From Jiangella gansuensis DSM 44835 (GTDB taxonomy: Bacteria; Actinomycetota; Actinomycetes; Jiangellales; Jiangellaceae): a stretch of DNA of 64,000 nucleotides. Made by a program: the position numbers and the translations under genes. Position 1 is the first letter of the stretch; each line of letters begins with the position of its first letter. This document shows positions 29,807-52,232 of this stretch, piece by piece. The DNA is taken from contig NZ_KI911782.1 of assembly GCF_000515395.1 (NCBI RefSeq), positions 4,090,606-4,154,605 on the forward strand, read 5' to 3'. The notes beneath the pieces are model-generated. The model was not told the origin of the DNA. It saw only the letters and a list, made by a program, of their open reading frames with translations, and made no database searches.

Positions 29807-31459
29807 TCAGTGCTGGCCGCCGCTGGTGATCTCGTCGCGGTGTCCGGCCTCGACGGCCTCGTGGTGACCGTTGTGGTGCGCCGCCTCGAGCTCTTCGCGC
29901 GTCGGCTTCTGGACGACGTCACCGAAGTAGAAGCGAGAGAGCTTCGCCTGGACGCGCTTGCTCCGGTAGTTCGGGTTCGGGATGCCGTTGGCGTCCGTCG
30001 CCGGGCCGGGGTCGGACGGCAACTGCCGCTCGTGCCAGGTGAGCTGGTAGGCGTCCCCGGGCGACAGCGGCGCGTGCAGTTCCGAGAACTCGCCGTCCGG
30101 GCTGACCATGACGATGCCCGTCTCGCGGCCGTGCATGACCTTGTCGCGGTCGCGCCGCTGCAATCCCAGGCAGATCCGCTTGGTCAGGATGAAGGCCAAC
30201 GGTGGCAGCACGATGACGCCGACCTGGATGAACCGGGTGATCCAGTTGACCGGGATCTCCAGAACCGTGGCGAAGAAGTCGTTACCGCCGGCGATCCACA
30301 GCAGGATATAGAAGACGATGAACGCCACACCGATGCCGGTGCGCACCGGCACGTTGCGCGGCCGGTCCAGGACGTGGTGCTCCCGCCGGTCGCCGGTGGC
30401 CTTCTGCTCCAGCCACGGGTACAGCGCAAGCGGTGTCAGGATCAGGCCGGGCAGGATGATCGCTGGGATCAGCACGCTCATCGTGATCGGGTGACCGAAG
30501 ACGTAGAACTCCCACGGTGGCATCACGCGCAGCGCACCGTCGAGGAATCCGACGTACCAGTCCGGCTGGGTACCGGCGCTCACCACCGACGGGTCGTACG
30601 GCCCCCAGAACCAGACCGGGTTGATCTGGATGGTGGCGGCCAGCAGGACGATGACGCCCATGACGATGAACTGGAAGCCACCGGCCTTCGCCACGTAGAT
30701 CGGGAAGAACGGTGCGCCGGCGACGTTGGAGTTCGTCTTGCCCGGGCCGCCCCAGTGGGTGTGCTTCTGGTACCAGAGGATCATCAGGTGCGCGGTGACC
30801 AGCGCCAGGATGAGGCCCGGGATCAGCAGGATGTGCATCGGGTAGAGCCGCGCCACGATGTCGTCGCCGGGGTACTCGCCGCCGAACAGGAACGACGACA
30901 GGTACGTGCCGACGATCGGGATCGCCAGCATGCCGCCCTCGATGATGCGCAGCCCGGTACCGGACAGCAGGTCGTCGGGGAGCGAGTACCCGGTGAAGCC
31001 GGCGGCGACGCCGAGAAGCAGCAGAGTCACGCCGATCAGCCAGTTGATCTCACGCGGCTTGCGGAACGCGCCGGTGAAGAACACCCGCAGCATGTGCGCG
31101 GACATGGCGGCCAGGAAGACCAGTGCGCCCCAGTGGTGCACCTGACGCATCAACAGGCCGCCGCGAACCTCGAAGGAGATCTCGAGCGTGGATGCGTACG
31201 CCTCGGACATGCCGACACCCCGCAGCGGAATGTAGGCGCCCTCGTACGCGATGTGCGCCATCGATGGCTTGAACCACAGGGTCAGGAACACGCCGGACAG
31301 CAGGATGATGATGAAGCTGAACAGCGCGATCTCGCCGAGCAGGAACGACCAGTGGTCGGGGAAGACCTTGCGGATGTTCCGTTTCAGCCAGTTCGAGGCG
31401 GTGATCCGCTGGTCGACGAAGTCGACGACCTTGCCGGCACCGTTGACGATGGTGCTCAT
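29807..31459 (-). CDS. qcrB: Cytochrome bc complex cytochrome b subunit
   Basis: A 550-residue quinol-oxidising subunit of the bcc complex with eight or more transmembrane helices. Heme ligands are complete: H108 and H122 in RQVHHWGALVFLAAMSAH, and H209 and H224 in MHILLIPGLILALVTAH, with the 15-residue b6-type spacing in the second pair. The Qo-site PEWY equivalent is PDWY (299-302). The long C-terminal extension with KRICLGLQRRDRDKVMHGRETG is actinobacterial. The ATG overlaps the qcrA stop (ATGA). It is the last gene of ctaE-qcrC-qcrA-qcrB. A divergent paralogue lies at 49874. Confidence 0.96.
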   Translation of the reverse strand: MSTIVNGAGKVVDFVDQRITASNWLKRNIRKVFPDHWSFLLGEIALFSFIIILLSGVFLTLWFKPSMAHIAYEGAYIPLRGVGMSEAYASTLEISFEVRGGLLMRQVHHWGALVFLAAMSAHMLRVFFTGAFRKPREINWLIGVTLLLLGVAAGFTGYSLPDDLLSGTGLRIIEGGMLAIPIVGTYLSSFLFGGEYPGDDIVARLYPMHILLIPGLILALVTAHLMILWYQKHTHWGGPGKTNSNVAGAPFFPIYVAKAGGFQFIVMGVIVLLAATIQINPVWFWGPYDPSVVSAGTQPDWYVGFLDGALRVMPPWEFYVFGHPITMSVLIPAIILPGLILTPLALYPWLEQKATGDRREHHVLDRPRNVPVRTGIGVAFIVFYILLWIAGGNDFFATVLEIPVNWITRFIQVGVIVLPPLAFILTKRICLGLQRRDRDKVMHGRETGIVMVSPDGEFSELHAPLSPGDAYQLTWHERQLPSDPGPATDANGIPNPNYRSKRVQAKLSRFYFGDVVQKPTREELEAAHHNGHHEAVEAGHRDEITSGGQH

Positions 31460-32559
31460 CGCGTGCGCTCCCAGTAGCTCGGCCCCACGGGCTCGGTGAA
31501 GTCGCTCTGCGCGATCAGGTAGCCCTCGTCGTCGACCGCGATCGGCAGCTGCGGCAGGGCACGCGTGGCCGGGCCGAAGATGACCTTGCCGTTGTCGGCG
31601 AGGTCGAAGGTCGACTGGTGGCACGGGCAGAGCATGTGGTGCGTCGTCTGCTCGTACAGGCTGATCGGGCAACCGACGTGGGTGCAGATCTTCGAGTAGG
31701 CGAGGATGCCGTCGACATGCCAGTTCTCCCGGCCTTCATCGACGTGGATCTCGTCGGGCAGCATCCGGACCAGCATGACCGGCGACTTGGCGCGCTCGTT
31801 GATGCGCTCCGGCCCGTGGTCGGGCAGGTCCTCGAAGGTGGCCGGCATGGCGTTGACCAGCTGGCCGATCTCCAGGTCCGAGGCCCGGATGGGCTGGAAC
31901 GTCACGTCGGTGAGGATGCGCACCCCCTCGGCCCAAATGGTGTGCTCCTTGCGCTCGGCCGGGGTGCCTCCGGTGTTGGGGCCGAGGTCGCGCAGCAGGA
32001 TGACCGCCGGCAGCGGCAGCAGCGCCAGGGCACCGAGCATCGAGTTGCGGATCATCTTGCGGCGGCCGAAGCCGGTCTCCTCGACGCCGGTGTTCCAGTC
32101 GTTCAGCGCAGCTTCGCGGATGTCGTCGTCCGGGCGCATGACGTGGCGCTCGTGGACGACCTCCGGCGAGGTCATGAGCGACCGGGCCCACTGCACCGCG
32201 CCGGCGCCCACGAGGAACAACGCCAGGCCCAGCGTGAGGCCCAGCGTCAGGTTCGACAGCTGGAGGTCGCCGACGTCGATACCGGCGTGAGGGTCGTCCG
32301 GGTGAATGCCGACCGCCACGTACGCGACGATGAATCCGACCATCAGGAGCGACGCCAGCGTGAACATGCCCGCGACCTGCCGCTCGGCGCGTTTGGCGGC
32401 CTTCGGGTCGACGTCGGTGAACCGCTCCGGCTCATGGTGGAGCCCGGGGTCGGGGAGCGGGTCGCCCGCTCCGGTGACGTCGGCGACCTCGTCCGACGCG
32501 CGCGGTGCGATGGCCTCGGACTCGCTGGGACCGTTCGTGTGCTCGTAGTTCGCGCTCAT
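31456..32559 (-). CDS. qcrA: Rieske iron-sulfur subunit of the bcc complex
   Basis: A 367-residue membrane protein. It has three transmembrane helices in the N-terminal half (VAGMFTLASLLMVGFIVAYVAVG, LTLGLTLGLALFLVGAGAV, MLGALALLPLPAVILL), the long actinobacterial form. The [2Fe-2S] ligands are C292 and H294 in CTHVGCP and C311 and H314 in CPCHQS; C297 and C313 form the usual disulfide. It shuttles electrons from quinol to the diheme cytochrome c. ATG 32559 overlaps the qcrC stop, and the start inside the longer open frame matches the family. Confidence 0.95.
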   Translation of the reverse strand: MSANYEHTNGPSESEAIAPRASDEVADVTGAGDPLPDPGLHHEPERFTDVDPKAAKRAERQVAGMFTLASLLMVGFIVAYVAVGIHPDDPHAGIDVGDLQLSNLTLGLTLGLALFLVGAGAVQWARSLMTSPEVVHERHVMRPDDDIREAALNDWNTGVEETGFGRRKMIRNSMLGALALLPLPAVILLRDLGPNTGGTPAERKEHTIWAEGVRILTDVTFQPIRASDLEIGQLVNAMPATFEDLPDHGPERINERAKSPVMLVRMLPDEIHVDEGRENWHVDGILAYSKICTHVGCPISLYEQTTHHMLCPCHQSTFDLADNGKVIFGPATRALPQLPIAVDDEGYLIAQSDFTEPVGPSYWERTR

Positions 32560-33407
32560 GCCTTCGACGACCTCGTCACGATCCAGGTGGCCATGCCGAT
32601 CAGAAGCCCGATACCGACCAGCCAGGCCCACAAGCCCTCCGCGACCGGGCCGGCGCGGCCGATGCCGAGGCCGCCCGGGTCGGGCTCGTTCTCGATGGAG
32701 TCGAGGAAAGCGATGATGTCGCGCTTGTCCTCGGGCGTGACGGTCCGGTCGTTGAACACCGGCATGGCCTGCGGTCCGGTGAGCATGGCTTCGTAGATGT
32801 GCTTGGGCTCGACACCGGTCAGCGCCGGCGCGAACTGGCCCATCGTCAGCGCACCACCCTGCCCGGTGGTGTTGTGGCACTGTGCGCAGTTGGTGCGGAA
32901 CAGCTCCCCACCGCGGGCGACGTCACCGGCGGACGGGTCGAGGTACTCCTCGTCCGGGACGTCGGGCCCGGGCGCGAGCGACGCGACGTACTCGGCCATC
33001 GCGTCGATCTGCTCCTGGCTGTAGGAGACCGGCTTCCGCTCGGCCTGCGCGGCCGGCGCGGCGAGCGGCATGCGGCCGGTGCCCACCTGGAAGTCGACGG
33101 AGGCCGCCCCGACGCCGATCAGCGACGGGCCGAGCACGTCGCCGTCGTCGTTGATCTGGCCCTCACCGTTCAGGCCGTGGCACGAGGAGCAACCGACGGC
33201 GAACAGCTGCCGGCCCTCCTCGATCTGCGTGCTGGACGCGGCCTGCACGTTCTGCGACGTCGACGGTGCCAGCGCGGCGTAGGCGCCGCCCGTGGTGAAC
33301 AGGACGGCCACGAGCACGGCGATGGCGGCGAGCGGATGCCGTCGCCGGGTGGACAGCAGCCGCCCGATCCACGAGCCGCGGGACCGGCCGGGCAACGAAC
33401 TGGGCAC
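32556..33407 (-). CDS. qcrC: Diheme cytochrome c subunit of the bcc complex
   Basis: A 283-residue membrane-anchored cytochrome c with two heme-binding motifs, CSSCH (73-77) and CAQCH (174-178). An N-terminal signal anchor (AAIAVLVAVLFTTGGAYAA) and a C-terminal transmembrane helix (GLWAWLVGIGLLIGMATWIV) hold the heme domains outside, where they reduce the aa3 oxidase directly. The start is a choice between GTG 33407, which has AGGAGA just upstream, and GTG 33422, which overlaps the ctaE stop but has no ribosome site; the former is given. Confidence 0.94.
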   Translation of the reverse strand: MPSSLPGRSRGSWIGRLLSTRRRHPLAAIAVLVAVLFTTGGAYAALAPSTSQNVQAASSTQIEEGRQLFAVGCSSCHGLNGEGQINDDGDVLGPSLIGVGAASVDFQVGTGRMPLAAPAAQAERKPVSYSQEQIDAMAEYVASLAPGPDVPDEEYLDPSAGDVARGGELFRTNCAQCHNTTGQGGALTMGQFAPALTGVEPKHIYEAMLTGPQAMPVFNDRTVTPEDKRDIIAFLDSIENEPDPGGLGIGRAGPVAEGLWAWLVGIGLLIGMATWIVTRSSKA

Positions 33408-47218: not shown

Positions 47219-48466
47219 TCAGCCGCGCGGGTCGGTGACCGAGCCGAGGAAGAGGATGGTGCCGGTCTCACGGTCGGAGATGGTGAAGGCGAACGGCCGG
47301 TCCACCCGGAACTCCATTCCCGCCGACTGTGCCATCACCCCGCCGGTGACGGCCGCCGCCTCGGTGCCTTTCTCGTCGACCCGCAGATAGGTCTTGTGCG
47401 CCACAACGTCCAGCCACGGATTGGACGGTGACATCGGGCGGAAGTCGCCGCCCCCGAACGCCAGGCCCATGCCGAGCGCGGTCAGCGCGTCGTCGAGCGT
47501 CGCCTCCCACTCCAGTTCGAAGCGGGGGAGCGCGAGGGTCGAGATCTTCTGCTCGCCGAGGCCGGCGACGGCGTCGGCCCACTCGGCGGCGTCGAGCCGG
47601 CTGAGCAGGTCCGGCAGCCCGGCGGGATCGTCAGGCACCAGGATCTCCATGCCGTAGCGCTCGTCCTCGCCGTAGGGCAGCCGCAGCATGCGATACCCGT
47701 CGCGGGTGCTCAGCTCCAGGTACGTATCGCTCTGGTGCATGAGCGGAACCGTGACGACCTCGCCGTCGGGCAGGGTGAAGTCGGCGTCGCGGGTCTCGGC
47801 CGCATCGAACGGGGTGGTCCAGCCGCCGAGGAAGTAGACGGCGTTCAGCAGCACCAGGACGGCGTTCGCGTTGGGCAACTCGAGCTCCTCGGCGATGCCG
47901 TCGATGCGGTCCTCGGTGTGCTCGCGGACCCAGGCGTCGATCTCGTCCGCGGTGTCCTGCGAACCGAGCTCGGCCTCCTCGGCGGTGGCGCCGAACACGT
48001 CGCGGACGAACGTCAGGTAGTCCTCCTCGAACGGGTGGTCCTCCTGCGCCCACAGCGCGTTGGCGACCGAGAGCGTGACGTCGTCGGTGTCGGCCAACTG
48101 GTCCAGCAGGGCGCCGACCCGCACGTCACGGGCGTCGTCGAGGTGCAGGACGTCGGCCATGGCGGTCGCGGTGTCGCCACCGGCCCCGGCCAACACCATG
48201 GCCAGCAGTGCGGCGACGGACACAGGGGAGGTGACGGTGTTCTCGTCGCCGGCGGTGAGCTGGCCGAGCAGGTCGAATCCGAACGCGTTCACGGCGGAGC
48301 CGACGGCGCCGGCGTCGGCCGGCGCGAGATCCGAGACGACCTGCACCCGGGCGGTGTCCGGCGATGCGGGGGCGGACGGCGAGCCCTCGCCGTCGACGGC
48401 GGCGGTTCCGCAGGCCGCGACCAGCAGGCTGCCGGCGACGGCGGCGGTCCAGCGTGTGAGCGACAT
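47219..48466 (-). CDS. Serpin-family protease inhibitor, lipoprotein (first of tandem pair)
   Basis: A 415-residue serpin anchored by a lipobox (SLLVAACG). The fold signatures are present: VTSPVSVAALLAMVLAGAGGDTATAM, NAVYFLGGWTTPFD (breach/shutter strand), YGMEILVPDD, HKTYLRVDEKGTEAAAVTGG (inhibitory hinge) and DRPFAFTISDRETGTILFLGSV. The small residues after G-T-E in the hinge suggest a working suicide inhibitor. By count the scissile bond is near Q-S-A-G, implying an elastase- or subtilisin-like rather than trypsin-like target. A GGGGGT site precedes the ATG. It follows the second serpin after 23 bp. Confidence 0.92.
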   Translation of the reverse strand: MSLTRWTAAVAGSLLVAACGTAAVDGEGSPSAPASPDTARVQVVSDLAPADAGAVGSAVNAFGFDLLGQLTAGDENTVTSPVSVAALLAMVLAGAGGDTATAMADVLHLDDARDVRVGALLDQLADTDDVTLSVANALWAQEDHPFEEDYLTFVRDVFGATAEEAELGSQDTADEIDAWVREHTEDRIDGIAEELELPNANAVLVLLNAVYFLGGWTTPFDAAETRDADFTLPDGEVVTVPLMHQSDTYLELSTRDGYRMLRLPYGEDERYGMEILVPDDPAGLPDLLSRLDAAEWADAVAGLGEQKISTLALPRFELEWEATLDDALTALGMGLAFGGGDFRPMSPSNPWLDVVAHKTYLRVDEKGTEAAAVTGGVMAQSAGMEFRVDRPFAFTISDRETGTILFLGSVTDPRG

Positions 48467-48489
48467 GCGTACCCCCAGGTTGGTCGGGC

Positions 48490-49770
48490 TCAGCCGCGCG
48501 GGTCGGTCACCGTCCCGAGGAAGACGACGGTGCCGGTCTCGCGGTCGGAGATGGTGAAGGCGAACGGCCGGTCTGCGCGGAAGCTCTCACCGGCCGACGT
48601 ACGCGTCATGCCGCCGGTGACGGCGGCGGCCTCGGTGCCGGCCTCGTCGACCCGGATGTAGGTCTTGTGCACGACGGTGTCCAGCGTCTGGCCGTGCGGC
48701 GACATGGGCCGGAAGTCGCCGCCCTGGAACGCCGGTCCCATGCCCAGCGCCGTCAGGGCGGCGGTCAGCTCGGCGTCCCACGCCAGTTCGAACCGGGGCA
48801 GCACGACGGTGCCGAGCTCCTGCGGCGCCAGGCCGGCGACGGCGTCGGCCCACTCGGCGGCGTCGAGCGTGGCCAGCAGCTGCGGCAGGGTGGAGTCGGC
48901 GTCGGGCAGCAGGATCTCCATGCCGTAGCGGCCGTCCTGGCCGTAGGGGAGGCGCAGCATGCGGTACCCGTCGCGCTGGACGAGTTCGAGTTCCTGGTCG
49001 CGCAGGTACATGAGCGGGACGTCGGCGGTGCTGTCGTCGGCCAGGGTGAACGCTTCGTCCTGGGTGGCGGCGGGGTCGAACTCGGTGGTCCAGGTGCCGA
49101 GGAAATAGACCGCGTTGAGCAGGACGACCGCGGCCTGCGGATCCGGAAGGCCGAGGTCGGCCGCGATGCCGTCGATGCGCTCCTCGGTGTGCTCGCGGAC
49201 CCAGGCGTCGATGTCGTCCGCGGTGTCCTGCGCGCCGAGGTCCGCCTCCTCGGCCGTCGCCCCGAACGAGTCGCGGACGAACGAGAGGTAGCCGTCCTCG
49301 AGCTGGAAGCCCTCACGAGCCCAGATGGCGTTGGCGGTGGAGAGGGTGACGTCGTCGGTGTCGGCCAGCCGGTCGAGCAGCGCGCCGACACGAACGTCGC
49401 GGGCGTCGTCGAGGTGCAGGACGCCGGCCATGGCGGCGGCGGTGTCGCCACCGGCGCCCGCGAGCACCATGGCCAGCAGCGACGCCACCGAGACCGGCGA
49501 CGTGACGGTGTTCTGCGAGCCGTCGGCGAGCTGGCCGAGCAGGTCGAAGCCGAACGCGTTGACCGCGGCGCCGACGCTGCCGGCGTCGGCCGGCGCGAGG
49601 TCGGCGACGACGTCGATGCGCGGCGCCGGACCGGCGTCGGCCGGCGGCGTCGTGGTCTCGGGGCCTGCCGTGGCGGTGGAGCCCGCGCCGGGACCGTCGG
49701 TGTCGCTGCCGCAGCCGGCCAGCAGCAGACAGCCCGCGAGCAGGGCAGCGGCCAGGCGAGGCAGGGACAT
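48490..49770 (-). CDS. Serpin-family protease inhibitor, lipoprotein (second of tandem pair)
   Basis: A 426-residue paralogue of the neighbouring serpin, with the same motifs: VTSPVSVASLLAMVLAGAG, NAVYFLGTWTTEFD, HKTYIRVDEAGTEAAAVTGG and DRPFAFTISDRETGTVVFLGTV. The lipobox is LLLAGC, followed by a Thr/Pro/Gly-rich linker. The reactive loop differs (MTRTSAGES versus VMAQSAGME), while the body is very similar, which suggests duplication followed by change of target protease. ATG 49770 has GAAGGTG upstream, better than the longer frame. It lies 103 bp after qcrB2. Confidence 0.92.
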   Translation of the reverse strand: MSLPRLAAALLAGCLLLAGCGSDTDGPGAGSTATAGPETTTPPADAGPAPRIDVVADLAPADAGSVGAAVNAFGFDLLGQLADGSQNTVTSPVSVASLLAMVLAGAGGDTAAAMAGVLHLDDARDVRVGALLDRLADTDDVTLSTANAIWAREGFQLEDGYLSFVRDSFGATAEEADLGAQDTADDIDAWVREHTEERIDGIAADLGLPDPQAAVVLLNAVYFLGTWTTEFDPAATQDEAFTLADDSTADVPLMYLRDQELELVQRDGYRMLRLPYGQDGRYGMEILLPDADSTLPQLLATLDAAEWADAVAGLAPQELGTVVLPRFELAWDAELTAALTALGMGPAFQGGDFRPMSPHGQTLDTVVHKTYIRVDEAGTEAAAVTGGMTRTSAGESFRADRPFAFTISDRETGTVVFLGTVTDPRG

Positions 49771-49873
49771 GAGCACACCTTCCATCGGCTCCGGCGGTTC
49801 CGGCGACGAGTCAACCACGCTCCTACTCCCTTGGACGGGACCGGCGCCCGTTCGGTTGCGCGGATCCGGCGCC

Positions 49874-51496
49874 CTACGCCACCGGGGCGCGCTCGTCGGA
49901 CTCCGTCGGCCTGTGGTCGTCGGGCGCCGCCGGGACCCGGACGACGTCGCCGAAGAAGAAGCGGGAGAACCGGGCGCGGCGCCGATCCGCCCGGTACCGC
50001 GGGTTCAGCACACCGTTCGCGTCGGCCTCGGCGCCCGGGTCGGTCGGCGCCCACTCCAGGTGCGGCGTCCGCAGCGCCGCCTCCGGCGCGGTGAGCGGCC
50101 GGTGCAGTTCGCTGAACCCGCCCTCGGGGCTGACCATGACGACACCGGTCGCGTGCCCGTGCTCCAGCTCGTCGCGGTCGCGGAGCTGCAGGCCCAGGCA
50201 GATCCGCTTCGCCGCCCAGAACGCCAGCGGCGGCATGACGACGACAGCCACCTGCAGCGCCCGGGTGAGTCCGTTCAGCGGAACGTGCAGCAGGGTGGCG
50301 ACGACGTCGTTCCCACCGGCGATCCACAGGATCAGGTAGAAGGCGACGAACGCGGCGACCAGACCGGTGCGCACCGGCAGGTCGCGCGGCCGGTCCAGCA
50401 CCGCGGGGTCGCGCCGGTCGCCCGTCGCCCACTGCTCGAACCACGGGTAGAGCGCCAGCGTCGCCAGCATCACTCCGGGCAGCACCATGACCGGGATCAC
50501 CACGCTGAGCGTGAGCTCGTGCCCGAAGACGCCGATCTCCCACGGCGGCATGAGCCGCACGGCACCGTCGAGGAACCCCAGGTACCACGGCGGCCGGCTG
50601 CCGGCGGGCGCCTGGGCCGGGTCGAACGGACCCCAGAGCCAGACCGGGTTGACCTGGATCGTGGCGGCCATGAGAACGATGACACCGCTGACCGTCAGCA
50701 GCAGGCCGGCCATCCGCGCCGCGTAGGCGGAGACCGGCGGCGCGCCCGCCGTCGTCGCCGGCGCCCTCCCGCGCGGACGCTGCCGGTACATCAGCAGCAG
50801 GTACAGGGCGAACAACGCGACGGTGACCGCCGGCAGCAGGTACACGTGCGCGGTGTTCAGCCGCCCGATGATGTCCTCGCCGGGGAAGTCGCCGCCGAAC
50901 ACCACCCACGCCATCCACGTGCCGATCACCGGGGTGGCCAGCAGGTAGCCCTCGGTGACCCGCAACCCGGTTCCCGACTGCAGGTCGTCGGGCAGGGAGT
51001 GCCCGAGGTACGCCTCCGCGATGCTCACCACGAGCAGGGCGAGCAGGATCAGCCAGCCGTACCGCCGCGGCCCCCGGAACGCGCCGGCGAGGAAGACCCG
51101 GAGCAAATGCGCCGACAACGCGGCGATGAACACCAGCGACGCCCAGTGGTGAATCTGCCGGACCAGCAGACCGCCCTTGACCTCCATCGAGATGTCCAGC
51201 GTTGACGCGTACGCCTCGGACATCCGCACGCCTCGCAACGGCGCGTAGTCGCCGTCGTAGACGATCTGCGTCATCGACGGCTGGAACCAGAACGTGAGCA
51301 CGACGCCGGTCACCAGCACGAGGACGAAACTGCAGACCGCCATGGGGCCGAGCAGGTCCGGCCACCGCGCCGGGGCGGCGACCCCGCGCCGGTCCGGCCG
51401 GCGGACTCCGCCACCGCGCCGGTCGGCCAGGTCCGTCAGCCGCGTGGCCAGGCTCGCGACGCGGGCGATCGGTCCGTGGTTCGTCAGGTCAGGCAT
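49874..51496 (-). CDS. Orphan cytochrome b (QcrB paralogue) with altered heme and quinol sites
   Basis: A 540-residue paralogue of QcrB with similar topology and the same C-terminal extension (KRICLGLQLRDRDELEHGHATG). The helix-B histidines remain (H116 and H130 in RQIHHWASLVFIAALSAH). In helix D, H217 remains, but the partner 15 residues later is Y232 (HVYLLPAVTVALFALY), so by cytochrome b6/b numbering the heme bH site has lost a ligand. The Qo motif PDWY is PPWY (302-305). No Rieske or cytochrome c gene is adjacent. It lies upstream of the two serpins and has an unusual divergent promoter region. A changed role is inferred. Confidence 0.88.
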   Translation of the reverse strand: MPDLTNHGPIARVASLATRLTDLADRRGGGVRRPDRRGVAAPARWPDLLGPMAVCSFVLVLVTGVVLTFWFQPSMTQIVYDGDYAPLRGVRMSEAYASTLDISMEVKGGLLVRQIHHWASLVFIAALSAHLLRVFLAGAFRGPRRYGWLILLALLVVSIAEAYLGHSLPDDLQSGTGLRVTEGYLLATPVIGTWMAWVVFGGDFPGEDIIGRLNTAHVYLLPAVTVALFALYLLLMYRQRPRGRAPATTAGAPPVSAYAARMAGLLLTVSGVIVLMAATIQVNPVWLWGPFDPAQAPAGSRPPWYLGFLDGAVRLMPPWEIGVFGHELTLSVVIPVMVLPGVMLATLALYPWFEQWATGDRRDPAVLDRPRDLPVRTGLVAAFVAFYLILWIAGGNDVVATLLHVPLNGLTRALQVAVVVMPPLAFWAAKRICLGLQLRDRDELEHGHATGVVMVSPEGGFSELHRPLTAPEAALRTPHLEWAPTDPGAEADANGVLNPRYRADRRRARFSRFFFGDVVRVPAAPDDHRPTESDERAPVA

Positions 51497-51620
51497 GTCG
51501 CACTCCCGGAATTCGCTCCTGTACTCAAGACCCCGTCCGGGTGGGTGGTTGTGACATGAGATGGGTCACGCTCGCGACCCGGGATGCGGGACTGTCAGCC
51601 GTCACCGCGCTCGGAAGAAG

Positions 51621-51782
51621 GATCAGGTGGACGATCGCGCCGGAGTGCCGCGCCGAGGTCACCTGATCGTTTCGTGTCCACATGCTGGAGACGAGCAGGT
51701 GCACAAACCTCGCGTCCCGGGACGCCGTCGTCACCTGATCATCGCCACCCGACCGATCAGGTGGCACATCGACGATCAGGTG
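51621..51782. promoter_or_regulatory. Five copies of GATCAGGTG between qcrB2 and 51849
   Basis: GATCAGGTG occurs at 51621, 51755 and 51774 on the plus strand and inverted (CACCTGATC) at 51660 and 51732. A palindrome CGTCCCGGGACG lies near the middle. They occupy the 352-bp gap between two divergent genes, suggesting an operator cluster or remnants of short inverted-repeat elements. No protein-coding frame is convincing there. Confidence 0.55.
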
Positions 51783-51848
51783 ACGTCCCGCGAGCACGCG
51801 ACGCCCGCGGCGGCGGCCAGCATCGGTACCGGCCCCTAGGCTGACCGG

Positions 51849-52232
51849 GTGACGCCGTCGATCGACCTCATGGACGACACGTTCGTCGTCGCCGACCGCG
51901 CCGAGCTGGCCGCGTACTTCCGGGACCCGGACACCTGCCGGGCGTGGTGGCCGCGGCTGCGGCTCACCGTCGACGAGGATCGCGGACTGAAGGGCGTGCG
52001 GTGGGTCGTGGCCGGCGAGCTGGCCGGGACCGCGGAGATCTGGCTGGAACGGTGGCGCGACGGCGCCGTCGTGCACTGGTTCCTGCGCGCGGACCCGTCC
52101 GGGGCCGCCCGCTCTCCCGGCCGGCTGCGGCTGCGCTACACCCGCGAGTACAAGGCCCGGGTGCACGAGTTGAAGGACCGCCTGGAGCACGGCCGGGCAG
52201 CCGGCGTGCCGCGGCTGCCGCCGGCTCGATAG
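51849..52232 (+). CDS. Small SRPBCC-like protein
   Basis: A 127-residue protein: SIDLMDDTFVVADRAELAAYFRDPDTCRAWWPRLRLTVDEDRGLKGVRWVV, then AEIWLERWRDGAVVHWFLRAD and a C-terminal helix YTREYKARVHELKDRLEHGR. The order of a short strand, W-W-P helix, strands and long helix matches a reduced polyketide-cyclase/START fold, so ligand binding is possible but no ligand is known. The GTG start is at 51849. It lies 88 bp upstream of another SRPBCC gene and may share its transcript. Confidence 0.65.
   Translation: MTPSIDLMDDTFVVADRAELAAYFRDPDTCRAWWPRLRLTVDEDRGLKGVRWVVAGELAGTAEIWLERWRDGAVVHWFLRADPSGAARSPGRLRLRYTREYKARVHELKDRLEHGRAAGVPRLPPAR

Follow-up and report, generated by a model that had tools for sequence, protein, structure and literature searches.

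We analysed a 64,000-nucleotide stretch of the Jiangella gansuensis DSM 44835 genome (the window, to which the coordinates below refer). The window carries two genes for the cytochrome b subunit of the bcc complex, namely the canonical qcrB within the qcr operon and a paralogue, qcrB2, that lies as an orphan outside the operon and ~18 kb from it. A preliminary description of the locus had noted no Rieske or cytochrome c gene near qcrB2, which is correct for the immediate neighbours but not for the window, where the canonical operon is present. The genes considered are listed here.

49874..51496, minus strand: qcrB2, cytochrome b paralogue of 540 aa, putatively with heme bL only (NF050120, 553.8 bits)
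29807..31459, minus strand: canonical qcrB of the qcr operon, 550 aa, used as the reference paralogue
31456..32880, minus strand: ORF that we take to be qcrA (Rieske), with the true start probably inside; sole full-length match in the genome
32556..33422, minus strand: ORF that we take to be qcrC (di-heme cytochrome c); sole match in the genome
48490..49818, minus strand: serpin with a lipoprotein-like leader (leader by manual reading), 55 nt downstream of qcrB2
47219..48466, minus strand: second serpin of the same cluster, on the same strand as qcrB2

Lipoprotein-like leaders were read on both serpins that follow qcrB2 (window 47219-49818), and one to three genes of the serpin cluster follow qcrB2 in each of the 10 Jiangella genomes (of 12) for which the flank was fetched, with some clusters cut by the end of the stretch. 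On the other side of the gene, at window positions 51618-51790, several copies of about GATCAGGTGACG are found in both orientations between the qcrB2 promoter and a divergent 127-aa gene at 51849. Genome-wide, GTCACCTGATCNTCG was matched 27 times and the reversed control 0 times, with inverted pairs in several places, and we regard the two as a dispersed REP-like repeat.

The qcrB2 frame is intact, with a GC content of 0.95 at the third codon position. Its product shares 55% identity with the operon QcrB, and these two proteins are the only QcrB matches in the 5.59-Mb single-contig genome. For QcrA there is one full-length match in the genome and for QcrC one match; a second QcrA row was a weak 80-residue match with a stop. 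QcrB2 scored 553.8 bits against the NCBIfam model of actinobacterial QcrB (NF050120, cut-off 500), so that automatic annotation would label it an ordinary cytochrome b. In the AlphaFold2 model (mean pLDDT 73.4, pTM 0.75, residues 284-302 of the ef-loop region <50), which served for fold and helix boundaries alone, the long cytochrome b helices are present and helix D spans residues 209-238. Actinobacterial QcrB chains took the first nine places in a Foldseek search with this model.

By spacing and alignment, QcrB2 has both His ligands of heme bL, namely H116 and H217. The would-be bH pair consists of H130 and position 232, and bis-His ligation of heme bH is absent. Alignment placed Y232 opposite H224 of QcrB, which confirmed the initial reading that three of the four heme histidines remain, and residues 302-305 read PPWY in place of PDWY, as had also been reported. 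A different histidine acting as the bH ligand was looked for, and none other is found in the helix-D stretch of QcrB2. The sites are as follows.

50801..50803, minus strand: Tyr232 codon, aligned with His224 of QcrB, the helix-D ligand of heme bH
51107..51109, minus strand: His130 codon, by alignment the helix-B ligand of heme bH, still present here and gone in 5/16 orthologues
50582..50593, minus strand: Qo motif PPWY, residues 302-305 (QcrB: PDWY), by motif search and alignment; the motif match in the DNA spans 50565-50593
50999..51001, minus strand: His166 codon, aligned with Tyr153 of C. glutamicum, which forms the hydrogen bond at Qo
51344..51346, minus strand: Pro51 codon, aligned with Glu38 of C. 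glutamicum, which binds the quinone at Qi

Functional residues described for the C. glutamicum supercomplex (PMC8795186) were transferred to QcrB2 via the alignment. In that description, Tyr153 hydrogen-bonds a transition-state analogue at Qo, Glu38 is a menaquinone ligand at Qi, Lys253 belongs to the Qi path, and the Qi cavity is lined by helices A, D and E (PMC8795186). Asp302, Arg306 and Asp387 form the Rieske-side proton path, and Glu453 touches the oxidase subunit CtaD (PMC8795186). QcrB2 differs from the C. glutamicum protein by Asp295 to Pro, Tyr153 to His, Glu38 to Pro and Lys253 to Arg, and it retains Asp302, Arg306, Asp387 and Glu453, the last within a C-terminal extension that is present and carries this Glu in 16/16 orthologues. 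The changes of Tyr153 (His166) and Glu38 (Pro51) had been overlooked in the preliminary description.

Orthologues were surveyed in 20 near-complete genomes of the order, 16 of which have QcrB2: 12/12 Jiangella, 2/2 of a second genus, 2/5 of a third and 0/1 of a fourth. The 16 proteins form one clade (support 100/100), and the frame is open in each. The heme bL ligands are invariant (16/16), whereas the bH side is not: position 232 is W in six, Q in two, R in two, and Y, V, A, G, L or H in one each, and the helix-B ligand is His in 11, Gln in four and Tyr in one. The Asp295 position is Pro, within PPWY, in all 16 proteins. Tyr153 is replaced throughout (His 14, Asn 2), as is Glu38 (Pro 10, His 5, Gln 1), and the Lys253 position holds Arg in 13 and Lys in three. 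Asp302, Arg306, Asp387 and Glu453 are retained in 16/16. The orthologue of P. alkaliphila has all four heme His, yet it carries PPWY, His153 and Gln38. Homologues that keep both the helix-D His and the Qo Asp were looked for, and none occurs among the 16 orthologues.

The possibility that PPWY is a widespread motif of this type of protein was discarded. An exact PPWYxGFLDG pattern, which forms with other flanking residues would escape, matched 11 stretches of DNA in a collection of 84,980 species; ten belong to named Jiangellaceae and one to a MAG matching the family member G013.

Within Jiangella (12 vs. 12 genes), the median dN/dS was 0.43 for QcrB2 and 0.13 for QcrB, and QcrB2 branches were longer than QcrB branches in the tree. 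By simple Nei-Gojobori counting on very GC-rich codons, which allows comparison between segments only, pN/pS in the ef loop with PPWY was 0.12 for QcrB2 and 0.07 for QcrB, vs. 0.85 and 0.20 in the inner half of helix D plus the DE loop, 0.63 and 0.00 at the start of helix A (Qi ligand), and 0.70 and 0.02 in helix E. Counter to a clean two-way split, QcrB2 values were raised in helix C (0.58) and in the ten columns round the helix-D bL ligand (0.77). The excess relaxation of the inner over the outer side was reached in 0/20,000 permutations, with segment borders picked after the pN/pS values had been seen and the side of each segment assigned from family knowledge. Constraint on QcrB2 has collapsed on the inner (bH/Qi) side and not on the outer (bL/Qo/ef-loop) side.

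The raised dN/dS and the longer branches would also be expected of a duplicated qcrB drifting toward loss. We give almost no credence to such drift, because the frame is open in 16/16 orthologues, the bL ligands and PPWY are invariant, the ef loop is as conserved as in QcrB, the promoter sequence is conserved in Jiangella and the form recurs in a second clade (see below). The early judgement that the paralogue is not decaying is therefore upheld.

Outside the Jiangellaceae, 51 of 276 sampled genomes of the class had at least two QcrB matches, some of them fragments. Among 102 copies read from these multi-copy genomes, short and weak matches being left out, both bH His were kept in 97 and both were absent in five. 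Among the matches listed, at least 17 genes that lack both bH ligands were found in two other families (f29 and f35, with 30 loci read per family, so that counts are lower bounds); they are referred to as clade II. In the 17 genes read, the helix-B ligand is Gln in each, the helix-D ligand is Arg in 14, Trp in two and Leu in one, Glu38 is gone in 17/17, and PDWY and Tyr153 are present in 17/17, as are Asp302, Arg306, Asp387 and Glu453. Clade-II genomes have at least one further QcrB match each, and the second copy kept its bH ligands in the four genomes in which it was read (G088, G181, G183 and G252). One further gene (L166) has neither bH ligand and is separate in the tree, on a long branch.

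The AU test rejected a grouping of clade II with the Jiangellaceae clade, and with it a common origin (lnL 199.6 worse, p-AU 4.2e-6, a value not to be read too finely, since the clades were already apart in an earlier tree and both are long-branched). As judged from these phylogenies, the loss of the bH/Qi half in clade II is an independent event. Mean pairwise identity of the ef loop was 0.85 (canonical 0.83) and 0.83 (canonical 0.71) in the two clades, vs. 0.43 (canonical 0.82) and 0.45 (canonical 0.64) for inner helix D plus the DE loop. Of 161 near-invariant positions of the canonical proteins, 24 are lost in both clades, mostly on the inner side by manual assignment.

These comparisons bear on two points raised earlier. 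Loss of the His and the change of Asp to Pro, whose joint recurrence had been put forward as a check, do not behave as one linked event: Asp to Pro is found in 16/16 orthologues and loss of the His in 15/16, and clade II lacks the bH ligands with PDWY in 17/17. A single coupled change is contradicted by clade II and by the P. alkaliphila protein. A Tyr-ligated heme had also been suggested. This is not supported, because the 16 orthologues vary freely at position 232, as listed above, and on this ground a conserved Tyr ligand was rejected.

More generally, heme bH might still be bound, with Tyr232, another side chain or water as the sixth ligand, and QcrB2 would then be a re-tuned two-heme cytochrome b. 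His130 is present in J. gansuensis, the helix-B His is kept in 11/16 orthologues, and a membrane cytochrome b engineered to His-Lys ligation is described as working (PMC4807273). We consider a second heme very unlikely, since relatives have W, V, A, G, L, Q or R at position 232, the partner His is lost in 5/16 orthologues and in 17/17 clade-II proteins, and both the Qi ligand and the inner half are relaxed. The one-heme alternative of the preliminary description fared better: given the losses of bH ligands and Qi residues among orthologues, QcrB2 most probably binds heme bL only.

Other extra QcrB copies were observed in the course of this survey. An apparently intermediate form (L183 / L241, G331) has the helix-D ligand changed from His to Tyr and keeps Glu38, Lys253, Tyr153 and PDWY; it has NDH-2 and SigJ neighbours and possibly shows how the path to a bL-only protein begins. 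Yet another type of additional QcrB, found in the Phytoactinopolyspora group (L032/L062/L174, L058 and L065), has four heme His and PDWY, lies outside the qcr operon and is preceded by an exact ECF41-type promoter sequence; by manual sequence reading, the neighbours of L058 and L065 resemble cobalamin/precorrin genes. Very divergent QcrB proteins (42% identity) are encoded at L059 (G018:C4:165835-167061) and L167 (G282). The first of these adjoins a QcrC-like cytochrome c and a CtaD-cluster gene, possibly forming a separate bcc-oxidase cluster. At G275:C83:208288-209625, QcrB was matched in two pieces beside a copy of full length; six QcrB matches were found in that genome.

The neighbourhood of clade-II genes was read at 18 loci, the intermediate L183 included, with gene calls from an ORF and GC3 caller whose starts are rough and which left the qcrB of L239 itself uncalled. 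At 10/18 loci the gene immediately upstream, in the same orientation, encodes NDH-2, and a gene for an ECF41/SigJ sigma factor is present in the fetched stretch at 10/18, adjacent at some and a few kb off at others; 13 loci have NDH-2 or the sigma gene and five have neither. A flavoprotein resembling SdhA/FrdA is encoded at 4/18 clade-II loci and at one Jiangellaceae locus (non-Jiangella). The NDH-2 assignment was made on one protein by PDB sequence match (best 5.7e-37, a non-electrogenic NADH:ubiquinone reductase), and that of the sigma factor on two proteins, which scored above the cut-offs of TIGR02957 and PRK09636.

Such neighbours raise the possibility that QcrB2 works outside the bcc complex, as a free-standing one-heme quinone protein with NDH-2 (at some loci the SdhA/FrdA-like protein) as partner, passing electrons between menaquinone and an outer-side acceptor or sensing the quinone pool. 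None of the loci examined lies inside a qcr operon, and the canonical qcrB is ~15 kb away in the clade-II genome G565, much as in J. gansuensis. A free-standing role is nevertheless rather doubtful in our judgement: 33/33 proteins retain the residues described for the supercomplex, both Glu453 at CtaD and those of the proton path beneath the Rieske head, and two Jiangella loci have no NDH-2.

In the Jiangellaceae, the sigma gene is divergently adjacent to the orthologue at 4/4 non-Jiangella loci, and no sigma gene lies beside qcrB2 at the J. gansuensis locus. One ECF41 gene elsewhere in this genome (G000:C1:1957282-1958160) encodes a protein 72% identical to the qcrB2-linked sigma factor of Haloactinopolyspora and is far from qcrB2. 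With the qcrB2-linked sigma factor as query, each Jiangella genome gives 20 to 41 matches; the best reaches at least 66% identity in 8/12 and 53-58% in the other four. Upstream of qcrB2 itself, one sequence resembles the published ECF41 promoter, TGTCACA-n16-CGTC (PMC3426412).

51529..51556, minus strand: ECF41-type promoter sequence TGTCACA-N17-GGTC, which starts 60 nt upstream of the qcrB2 ATG

An exact TGTCACA with one mismatch in CGTC is found upstream of qcrB2 in 12/12 Jiangella, with N16 in 11 and N17 in the gene of the window. Among the four non-Jiangella orthologues, one has the same form, one (L025) has it farther upstream with a mismatched TGTCACA, and two have none. The background was three matches in 352,010 strand-bases, the site of the window included, and ECF41-type sequences stood before the canonical qcrB in 0/20 Jiangellaceae and 0/37 genes of the clade-II families (0/57 together; 39 genes of the latter were given and two could not be anchored). 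In clade II, the sequence lies right before qcrB in 6/16 anchored genes (19 given) and, by manual count, at the heads of transcription units in 13/18 loci, 59-61 nt before NDH-2 in four of them. Exact matches also precede 3/4 other extra Jiangellaceae qcrB genes with all heme ligands, so that genes for QcrB forms with a full bH pair can have this promoter sequence too. At 20 further extra-copy qcrB starts it is close in one, further upstream in two and missing in 17, and such regulation is therefore not a general trait of extra QcrB genes.

From the promoter sequence and the gene linkage, qcrB2 is probably under the control of an ECF41 (SigJ-type) sigma factor. Counted against the reading favoured below are the fraction of clade-II genes with the promoter right before qcrB (6/16), the 5/18 loci without NDH-2 or a sigma gene in the fetched stretch, and the 4/12 Jiangella in which no ECF41 gene closer than 53-58% to the qcrB2-linked one was found.

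A promoter of this type would also suit a non-catalytic decoy that ties up QcrA/QcrC, or one side of the dimer, and so reduces bcc activity during stress. The Jiangellaceae proteins have lost the Qo residues (Asp to Pro, Tyr to His or Asn) and the Qi ligand while keeping the docking residues, as a decoy might. It is unlikely that this is their function, because the invariant heme bL ligands would be needless in a decoy and clade II retains PDWY and Tyr153 in 17/17.

We tentatively favour the reading that QcrB2 is an ECF41-induced, bL-only, menaquinol-oxidising cytochrome b that would replace QcrB in the bcc dimer without a Q cycle; an alternative subunit of the bcc complex, one of the options first listed, so remains the leading idea. 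The protein would have shed its inner half, that is heme bH and the Qi quinone-reduction site, and kept its outer half with heme bL, the shell of the Qo pocket, the ef loop, the Rieske-side proton path and the oxidase-contacting Glu. It would be made when the ECF41 (SigJ-type) sigma factor is active and would take the place of QcrB in one half of the bcc dimer or in both. Since the genome has a single QcrA and a single QcrC, QcrB2 must share both if it serves a Rieske protein, and retention of the ef loop, the proton path and the oxidase-contacting Glu favours such sharing. The kept outer surfaces could, however, serve another partner. With heme bH and the Qi site absent, as predicted, the Q cycle could not run in a QcrB2 chain.

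A precedent for assembly comes from Rhodobacter capsulatus cytochrome b H212N, a heme bH knock-out impaired at the heme bH/Qi site according to PMC4330944 and PMC4807273. When one half carries H212N and the other a Qo block, the dimer is described as assembling and is used to show bL-to-bL electron transfer, whereas a fusion with H212N in both halves did not assemble (PMC4330944). By analogy, a mixed QcrB:QcrB2 dimer would be a reasonable working model, and the failure of the double mutant would speak against a QcrB2 homodimer. Replacement of both Qo residues argues against quinol oxidation by QcrB2 in the Jiangellaceae, where a mixed complex might be partly silenced, with a slower or silent half. 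In clade II, with Qo intact and NDH-2 often in the operon, the outcome may be a poorly coupled route from NADH through menaquinone to the oxidase. We count against the bL-only bcc-subunit reading the P. alkaliphila protein with all four heme His and a dN/dS above that of QcrB.

In a broader form, the hypothesis would make a repeatedly evolved 'half cytochrome b', bL-only QcrB with NDH-2, an ECF41-switched branch of menaquinol oxidation without a Q cycle, and thereby a natural uncoupled or redox-relief mode of bcc-aa3 that arises from mixed or exchanged b subunits. We regard this generalisation as doubtful.

The two-heme chain across the membrane is usually treated as indispensable to cytochrome b. 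The inner heme site and the Qi site have been removed more than once from a full-length and otherwise well-kept cytochrome b, and the result is perhaps a form that is induced by stress and has given up the usual means of conserving energy. QcrB2 would offer a natural counterpart of the engineered bH knock-outs for studies of inter-monomer electron transfer. It would also tie ECF41/SigJ sigma factors to respiration in a specific way that can be tested. Because compounds that inhibit actinobacterial QcrB are of medical interest, a paralogue whose outer pocket shell is retained may matter in practice. The open-licence literature was searched on Qo motifs, on QcrB that is an orphan or lacks bH, on ECF41 together with either cytochrome b or NADH dehydrogenase, and on cytochrome b in Jiangella; no such protein was found described. 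QcrB2 belongs to a known family, the actinobacterial QcrB; within the scope of that search, its recurrent and putatively bL-only form is new.

qcrB2 resembles known ECF41 targets in its promoter sequence (one mismatch), in the adjacency of SigJ/ECF41 genes in relatives and in its redox-type neighbours. The targets described in PMC3426412 are summarised as COE (carboxymuconolactone decarboxylase, oxidoreductase, epimerase), and the signal of ECF41/SigJ is called unknown there. Pyr_redox_2 proteins are among the oxidoreductases of that study, and an NDH-2 neighbour therefore fits the known ECF41 context. Neither 'cytochrome' nor 'NADH' occurs in the main text of PMC3426412, and a respiratory cytochrome b therefore looks new as a target of this group.

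In comparison with actinobacterial QcrB (NF050120; C. glutamicum 7Q21, M. smegmatis 6ADQ), QcrB2 has the same fold, C-terminal extension, bL ligands, ef loop and oxidase-contacting Glu. It differs in having no bH pair and no Qi Glu, in PPWY, in a His for the Qo Tyr, in its place outside any qcr operon and in its ECF41-type promoter. To R. capsulatus H212N it is alike in the loss of a heme bH ligand, H212 being presumably the helix-D ligand. H212N, however, is a laboratory point mutant of bc1, whereas QcrB2 is a natural, long-lived paralogue with further changes at both Qi and Qo.
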